DNA from: Moritella yayanosii
GTDB taxonomy: Bacteria; Pseudomonadota; Gammaproteobacteria; Enterobacterales; Moritellaceae
Direction of reading: 5' to 3'
Assembly: GCF_900465055.1 (NCBI RefSeq)
Contig: NZ_LS483250.1
Span: 3,906,001-3,970,000 of the forward strand
Length of the DNA stretch: 64,000 bases
Part shown: positions 38,719 to 47,278 of the stretch, piece after piece
Numbering within the stretch: position 1 is the first letter of the stretch
How the letters are laid out: each line of letters starts with the position of its first letter
Translations under genes and position numbers: made by a program
The notes under the pieces: generated by a model
What the model saw: the letters and a program-made list of their open reading frames with translations, nothing else
Told to the model about the DNA's origin: nothing
Database searches by the model: none

Positions 38719-38865
38719 TCCTTCGCTTACCCTACGGGAGGCTCGCTCGAATAACAGTACTGCGTTACAATATTTGCAAAAGGAATAATTATTATCTGCA
38801 TATTGAGCCTTGTTCTGATATCCCAGCGAGTCTCTGATATAGCATCTTGAAGGAGTTTGGGTATG
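38719..38865 (+). repeat. Half copy of the 264-bp inverted-repeat element
   Basis: This 147-base stretch between dsdA and dsdC aligns over its length with the right part of the complete element at 47015-47278, from CCTTCG to the right terminal repeat (GCATCTTGAAGGAGTTTGGGTAT). The left part is absent. Its internal hairpin arms (GAGGCTCGCT at 38738-38747, AGCGAGTCTC at 38825-38834) still pair, though their sequence differs from the complete copy. The end of this copy contains AGGAG (38851-38855). Confidence 0.8.
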
Positions 38866-47014: not shown

Positions 47015-47278
47015 TATACCCAAGCTACTTCAAGATGCACAATCAGCAAACCGAATGAAGAGTATATTCAAGGCATGAAGTCGAGGATTTAGTTATTCTA
47101 AATCAAGACGTCATAACGCCGAAGATGCCTTCGTTCGGCTTGCCCTGTGGGAGGCGAGCAGGAATAGCAGCACTGCGTTGCAATATTTGAAAATGGAATA
47201 ACCATTATCTACATATAGCGCCTTGTTTTGATATCCCTGCTCGTCTCTGATATAGCATCTTGAAGTAACTTGGGTATA
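47015..47278. mobile_element. 264-bp inverted-repeat element (MITE-like), complete copy
   Basis: Left end TATACCCAAGCTACTTCAAGATGC (47015-47038) and right end 47255-47278 are terminal inverted repeats matching at 23 of 24 positions. The inside codes for nothing obvious and holds a 12-bp hairpin (47151-47162 with 47236-47247, one G-T pair). A TA precedes the left end, but no clear target duplication is visible. It lies between metK and the YfaZ-like gene, in the promoter zone of the latter. Related pieces occur at 34654, 38719 and 52329. Confidence 0.8.

Follow-up and report, generated by a model that had tools for sequence, protein, structure and literature searches.

A double-hairpin mobile element with ERIC-like ends and covarying arms in Moritella yayanosii and other marine bacteria

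A 260-bp element and its half copy

The 64,000-nucleotide stretch of the Moritella yayanosii genome analysed here (the window) contains a 260-bp element between metK and yfaZ, names that were assigned to these genes from Pfam, and a half copy of the element that precedes a lysR gene (Table 1). The element has terminal inverted repeats of 22 nt, is flanked by a duplicated TA, falls below 500 bp in length, and overlaps no open reading frame of at least 80 aa in the ORF list, which covers that length class only. With these properties it is a small non-autonomous mobile DNA element (MITE) of marine bacteria. Its predicted fold consists of an end stem and two arms whose motifs, CAAGGC, GTTATTC, and AACGC, mirror each other, with z = -11.8 for the window copy. 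The same plan, built from other stem letters, is predicted for a Photobacterium copy (L098, z = -10.1), for a copy that clusters with one from Colwellia (L162, z = -11.3), and for a Vibrio copy (L089, z = -8.1). The linker that joins the arms is conserved as (G)CCC..GGG in the consensus of 35 copies, and a 2-bp linker hairpin is present in the predicted folds of L098 and L162 and absent from those of L089 and the window copy.

In a cluster of 52 copies, 47 have CAAGGC at position 55 counted from the left end and 41 have it at 54 counted from the right; GTTATTC is at 78 on the left in 44 and at 77 on the right in 42, and AACGC is at 101 on the left in 44 and at 100 on the right in 47. Exact matches are less common among the remaining 43 copies, of which 19 have CAAGGC at 55-57 on the left and 16 at 55-56 on the right, 12 have GTTATTC at 80 on the left and 3 at 77-79 on the right, and 14 have AACGC at 101-103 on the left and 6 at 101-102 on the right. 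A few motif matches in these copies occur at other positions.

Table 1 Features of the element and its half copy, with positions in the window.
Feature	Position	Strand	Basis or remark
Full-length element, 260 bp, double-hairpin, ERIC-like ends	47017..47276	+	between metK (-) and yfaZ (+)
TA target-site duplication, left copy	47015..47016	.	occupied and empty sites compared
TA target-site duplication, right copy	47277..47278	.	occupied and empty sites compared
Left terminal inverted repeat TACCCAAGCTACTTCAAGATGC	47017..47038	+	pattern scan
Right terminal inverted repeat	47255..47276	-	with TA, 24 letters equal to the right end of the Buttiauxella ERIC
Left arm hairpin	47046..47143	+	fold, covarying pairs, motif spacing
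Left-arm motifs CAAGGC, GTTATTC, AACGC	47069-47074, 47092-47098, 47115-47119		
Linker CCC-TGT-GGG joining the arms, possible small hairpin	47143..47151	+	consensus of 35 copies
Right arm hairpin, with the originally predicted stem at its base	47150..47248	+	fold, covarying pairs, motif spacing
Right-arm mirror motifs GCGTT, GAATAAC, GCCTTG	47175-47179, 47197-47203, 47220-47225		
Half copy, with only the right arm and right end	38725..38864	+	direct repeat, blast, end-pattern scan
Half-copy stem	38738-38747 / 38825-38834		
Half-copy right terminal repeat	38842-38863		

The full and half copies are 83% identical over 140 nt and form the sole direct-repeat family of at least 30 nt reported in the window. 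The original prediction held that a hairpin is preserved between them by compensatory changes, and its stem letters and coordinates are exact: GAGGCGAGCAGG (47151-47162) faces CCTGCTCGTCTC (47236-47247) in the full copy, and GAGGCTCGCT faces AGCGAGTCTC in the half copy. Pairs 6, 7, and 10 of this stem are altered on both sides with pairing intact, and the G-T at pair 4 is retained. Pair 11, which did not form part of the prediction, is G-C in the full copy and a broken C-C in the half copy. Alternative stems occupy the same place in other copies (CTAGCAGG/CCTGCTAG, CTAGCTGG/CCAGCTAG, and CTCGCTTG/CCAGCGAG), and one-sided, broken versions likewise occur among copies. Folded alone, the half copy is unremarkable (z = -0.84). 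Its site is old, with the half copy preceding lysR in 7 of the 10 Moritella genomes in which this gene was found and absent in 3. The ORF caller places the lysR start at TTG 38847, within the half copy, while ATG 38871 is common to the ten aligned genomes, and ATG 38863, created by the end of the element, occurs in this genome only among the seven that carry the half copy.

Distribution and past movement

The end pattern TACCCAAGNNACTTCAAGATGC has 42 and 46 matches with at most 3 mismatches in the 4.43-Mb M. yayanosii genome, compared with 0 and 1 for a reversed-pattern control. A blast search of the same genome at E <= 10 returned 98 matches to the element, some of which are fragments or hit the same sites on the opposite strand, and matches were found in all 11 Moritella genomes searched (2 to 78 per genome, fragments counted). 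Beyond Moritella, the matches listed for the end pattern include Vibrio, Photobacterium, Colwellia, Shewanella, Pseudoalteromonas, Rheinheimera, Legionella, and others. Occurrence is patchy: in an even sample of 369 genomes from the class, 7, M. yayanosii included, have the pattern at up to 1 mismatch. A relative is also present on six Vibrio and Photobacterium records in a plasmid collection. We found no description of the 260-bp element in the literature searched, which included few subscription journals, and work on ERIC divergence from 2011 (Zo) may cover long forms.

Inward-facing end pairs lie mostly 260-264 bp apart across genera, with shorter derivatives and some longer ones (275-311 bp). 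Derivatives of 137-172 bp in the M. yayanosii genome retain one arm or part of one. The same genome holds mini-palindromes of ~42-51 bp (L265-L268; 116332-116373, 2644108-2644152, 4094337-4094387, and 949637-949687), in which two ends stand nearly head to head and both arms are gone. The end pattern is also found in 19 viral contigs, three of which were examined. In two of them it lies inside a phage ORF that appears helicase-like by eye, and these matches were taken as chance. The third (L348:7998-8524) carries a derivative of 98 bp from end to end, followed ~430 bp later by a third end, and the 118-aa ORF between its last two ends is possible cargo.

The mobility that was originally proposed is borne out, as past movement, by sites with and without the element. 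The site upstream of yfaZ is occupied in 3 of 11 Moritella genomes and empty in 8, and comparison of the two states reveals the TA duplication. Of 95 full-length copies, 80 have TA next to both ends. All 64 copies of this set with enough flank to be tested are intergenic according to a simple ORF caller, with flanking genes in tandem at 38, divergent at 17, and convergent at 9, and no bias toward gene ends was found among these 64.

Covariation of the arms

Covariation was assessed with 95 distinct full-length sequences that have at most 6 mismatches at both ends and end-to-end distances of 250-268 bp. These copies were chosen for intact ends and one length class, and the length limits excluded 8 of the 77 distinct copies of an earlier set, all of them longer. 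The test is an in-house one modelled on R-scape, rather than R-scape itself, and employs a tree-based null with 40 sets; the trees assume no exchange between copies. Among 35 non-redundant copies (< 92% identity; mean 0.60), Watson-Crick pairing at the consensus pairs is recovered by 121 double changes and not by 14 others. When the partners are shifted by -3 to +3 columns, the same 35 copies yield 13, 9, 20, 25, 11, and 10 recovering changes, and the covariation is therefore real. In this cross-genus set, 17 of 57 consensus pairs reach E < 0.05, as do 12 of the 34,923 remaining column pairs; judged by eye, these 12 coincide with the same helices or fall at most about two columns from them.

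Power within individual clusters is lower, with 6 of 74, 1 of 93, and 1 of 64 pairs passing, along with 9, 5, and 4 non-pairs. Column pair 144-231 (47156/47242, pair 6 of the originally predicted stem) ranks first of all column pairs in 50 Moritella-like copies with E = 0.054, but its lead is narrow (21.7, with non-pairs next at 21.3) and its score falls short of the 95% point of the null maxima (58.9). In a run on 52 rows with 64 pairs and 40 null sets, it reaches E = 0.014 and is the sole pair to pass in the Moritella cluster, where 4 non-pairs pass the same cut. Because the statistics within Moritella are weak, the case rests on the cross-genus set, in which both the R-scape-type test and the slid-partner controls support the predicted covariation.

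Timing of the changes

Double and single changes were counted on four cluster trees that include 89 of the 95 copies, the other 6 belonging to no cluster of at least 4. Internal branches carry 50 double and 22 single changes and tips carry 41 double and 159 single changes (Fisher p = 2e-13). The double:single counts in the 52-row cluster are 22:10 on internal branches and 4:69 on tips, and the contrast is weaker in a 19-row, Vibrio-rich cluster (23:7 and 25:33). These counts fit maintenance of pairing in source lineages and its loss once copies have dispersed, and slow correction over time would also fit the excess on internal branches. Inserted copies mostly decay uncompensated, and therefore the changes that distinguish the full copy from the half copy probably arose in source lineages before insertion. 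The original argument that inert junk would not preserve a stem in this way is thus right about the existence of covariation and wrong for most inserted copies.

Ordinary divergence of inert repeats, with compensations arising by chance, would account for the many one-sided broken pairs in dispersed copies (the 159 on tips) and for the lack of any pair within Moritella above the 95% point of the null maxima. We nevertheless consider it very improbable, as it is contradicted by the 121 restoring double changes, which fall to 9-25 with slid partners, and by the share of consensus pairs that pass in the cross-genus set relative to other column pairs.

Arm-to-arm templated repair, through quasipalindrome correction or template switching, would instead rewrite one arm from the other with no selection on folding. 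Older internal branches hold more completed pairs, as time-dependent correction predicts, and 18 of the 26 double changes in the 52-row cluster are transversions on both sides, for which a stepwise route needs a mispair that copying would erase. The process would also be strand-symmetric, as is observed in the counts given below. However, the mispair G-T at columns 138-237 is conserved in 50 of 50 rows, and two other clusters keep an A-C at one pair of the end stem (18 of 19 rows and 10 of 10 rows). Further, the 69 single and 4 double changes on tips of the 52-row cluster indicate that correction in place is not fast there. Templated repair is, in our judgement, a rather unlikely explanation.

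Pairing at the level of RNA or DNA

A structured RNA made from one strand would tolerate C-to-T in a G-C pair, giving G.U, above G-to-A, giving A.C. For this strand test, the pairs came from folds of both strands in which G.U was disallowed. One-sided changes in the element comprise 47 G.U and 57 A.C (binomial p = 0.38), whereas RNA controls treated by the same procedure, 37 RNase P and 26 tmRNA loci from the same order after L221, L229, and 4 of 30 tmRNA loci were dropped for length, comprise 31 G.U and 6 A.C (element versus controls, Fisher p = 4e-5). On internal branches only, where counts are small, G.U:A.C is 1:6 for the element and 14:2 for the controls (p = 0.0017). A smaller RNase P control gave 18:9 (p = 0.12; 18 rows, with L221 and L229 left out for length). 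Raw counts on the given strand, in which related copies are counted repeatedly, are 466 A.C and 278 G.U, and with this lean toward A.C the opposite strand would make the better RNA. One-sided changes in the element therefore lack the preference for G.U over A.C expected of a structured RNA, and no Rfam family matches it. Most single changes in the element belong to tips, where they may reflect neutral decay, a process that would be symmetric for any molecule.

The fold could have been selected as RNA if transcribed copies, like those of ERIC and NEMIS in published reports, serve as processed hairpins or UTR structures. The RNA fold of the window copy is very stable, as its z score indicates, transcripts of ERIC and NEMIS are described in the parts of two publications consulted (PMC2229807, PMC10969869), a G-U is present at the base of the right arm in 50 of 50 rows with another in the originally predicted stem in 41 of 50, and a transcript from either strand is still compatible with the data. 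The balance of G.U and A.C relative to the controls, both overall and on internal branches, the lack of an Rfam match, and the lack of placement bias to gene ends count against this explanation, which we judge to be improbable. The absence of a G.U preference argues against a one-strand RNA and for pairing at the DNA level, and DNA-level pairing, or pairing on both strands equally, fits better than one-strand RNA, without proof. The proposal that the fold is selected either as structured RNA or as a hairpin needed for mobility is thus not supported in its first branch, insofar as it concerns RNA from one strand, and its second branch fits better. The element thus offers natural data in which the G.U:A.C ratio can distinguish DNA-level from RNA-level pairing, an approach that could be tried on other bacterial repeats.

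IS630-family insertion sequences with matching ends

Six IS630-family insertion sequences (ISs) constitute the related autonomous elements with the same ends that are expected for a MITE, although none was found complete in M. yayanosii. Both ends of these ISs match the element ends at 15-17 of 17 fixed positions, whereas 69 control stretches, each 1.9 kb long, score 10-13. The six come from Vibrio, Photobacterium, and Photorhabdus, and the match lists also contain ISs of Salmonella, Klebsiella, and others. Four Vibrio ISs of 1101 bp have similar ends that score 15-16 on both sides, a Photobacterium IS of 1001 bp scores 16 and 16, and a complete Photorhabdus IS (L073) of 1101 bp, with a frame that appears broken by eye, scores 16 and 17. 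The four Vibrio ISs and the Photobacterium IS were located with the M. yayanosii IS630 protein or its first half. At six Photorhabdus loci, a frame that resembles an IS630-type transposase by eye lies just within the end pattern. Two Vibrio transposases that were scanned are DDE_3/HTH_33 proteins, and the M. yayanosii IS630 relative shares 58% identity with one of the two; the M. yayanosii protein also has matches in 1363 plasmid records. The matching ends make IS630-family transposases a candidate mobiliser of the element, and perhaps of ERIC too. A transposase class with matching ends makes the question of the mobiliser testable.

Within Moritella, the IS630 gene of M. yayanosii has a left end with a score of 14, and a matching right end was not found beside it. 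Adjoining frames at L271:1948-3111 resemble an IS66-type insertion by eye. Ends at the other IS630-type loci examined in the genus (L272-L280) score only 10-12. A DDE_3 gene was found in 2 of 11 Moritella genomes and in none of the other 9, and a mobiliser therefore seems absent from most present hosts of the genus. The counts of DDE_3, Y1, and DUF4096 genes do not track element copy number in the genus, and the Y1 transposase, which accompanies REP/RAYT elements, is represented by 3 short fragments in M. yayanosii and by none in 10 congeners. Long-range end pairs were considered as possible borders of an autonomous partner and rejected: the long frames in four M. yayanosii intervals are not transposase-like by eye, and transposase-like ORFs enclosed by ends 1239 bp apart in Pseudoalteromonas sp. 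NBT06-2 (L124:5867-7105) probably reflect insertion into a copy.

A proposed explanation for movement and pairing

We lean towards the explanation that the element is a MITE of the ERIC kind that is moved in trans by an IS630-family transposase, with its pairing kept at the DNA level and its fold aiding movement. In this process, the transposase would recognise the ends TATACC[C]-7nt-TT[C/G]AAGATGC and insert the element at TA. Two mirror arms between these ends would each form a hairpin with the ordered motifs CAAGGC, GTTATTC, and AACGC, and would stay self-complementary in copy-producing lineages while their letters turn over, with an inserted copy expected to decay. The strand would most likely fold on the lagging strand or as a cruciform, with the ends joined as a paired stem beside the two hairpins, and this fold may help the element to excise or replicate. 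IS630-type elements probably depend mostly on their ends, which counts against movement that depends on a fold. The seeming absence of a mobiliser from most Moritella hosts also counts against the explanation we prefer, as do the weaker excess of internal double changes in the Vibrio-rich cluster and arm-to-arm copying, which could yield double changes in the absence of selection.

Transposition could also be structure-dependent, such that the folded single strand is part of the IS630-type substrate and pairing is selected across many families, with ERIC as a one-armed relative that uses the same mobiliser. We regard this version as a tentative possibility on the unlikely side.

Relationship to ERIC and other known systems

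ERIC (also IRU or RU-1) is a 127-bp repeat of enterobacteria and, according to a review (PMC2229807) that also attributes to it a TA duplication such as the element makes, of Vibrionaceae. Its ends, TATACCC-7nt-TTCRAG-N-TGC, resemble those of the element and score 14-17 of 17 fixed positions. The published E. coli consensus, taken for comparison from a table in PMC2759123, scores 16 and 15 at its two ends and agrees with the element at 18 and 19 of 24 letters, levels that shuffles of the 17 letters beyond TATACCC reach in 68 and 23 of 100,000 cases, respectively. A Salmonella copy from the same table scores 15 and 14. ERIC from Buttiauxella noackiae (L083:2820-2946), 127 bp long with 99 of 127 columns identical to that E. 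coli consensus, scores 16 and 17, and its right end is the same as that of the window element in all 24 letters. This identity suggests that the end came to be shared across genera by exchange or descent. The tabulated E. coli consensus holds CAAGGC followed by AACGC, the order found in the arms of the element, while the tabulated Salmonella copy has AACGC without CAAGGC, and GTTATTC is in neither of these two sequences.

In contrast to ERIC, with ~127 bp and one arm, the element is 260-264 bp long in most copies and has two mirror arms. Three profiles of element halves gave no significant match to ERIC when run against 2 ERICs and 1000 shuffles; the E. coli ERIC ranks first in two profiles and second in one, at 4.5-6.7 bits and E 0.5-2.4, in alignments of the end only. 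The element thus agrees with ERIC in end format and TA duplication and departs from it in length, number of arms, and whole-element similarity. Because the ends are shared with ERIC and there is no significant similarity beyond them, we name the element a two-armed relative of ERIC, not ERIC. The 137-172-bp derivatives show how a one-armed form can arise.

RUP of pneumococcus is, like the element, a MITE with a TA target and ends that resemble those of an IS, IS630-Spn1, but it is 107 bp long, lives in another host, and has no two-arm fold reported in the part of the review consulted (PMC2229807). The CIR elements of Caulobacter and Brucella share with the element a plan of two arms and a linker, but belong to alphaproteobacteria and lack terminal inverted repeats according to the table in that review (PMC2229807). 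The IS630-family ISs of Vibrio, Photobacterium, and Photorhabdus (1001-1101 bp) have the same ends as the element and, unlike it, carry a transposase gene and no arms. In the attC sites of integrons, pairing and a few motifs persist although the stem letters differ, and the folded single strand is the substrate. Although a TA duplication is a trait of the element and not of attC, the 260-bp element would, by analogy, resemble attC in how it works, with stem letters that vary and pairing and motifs that are kept.
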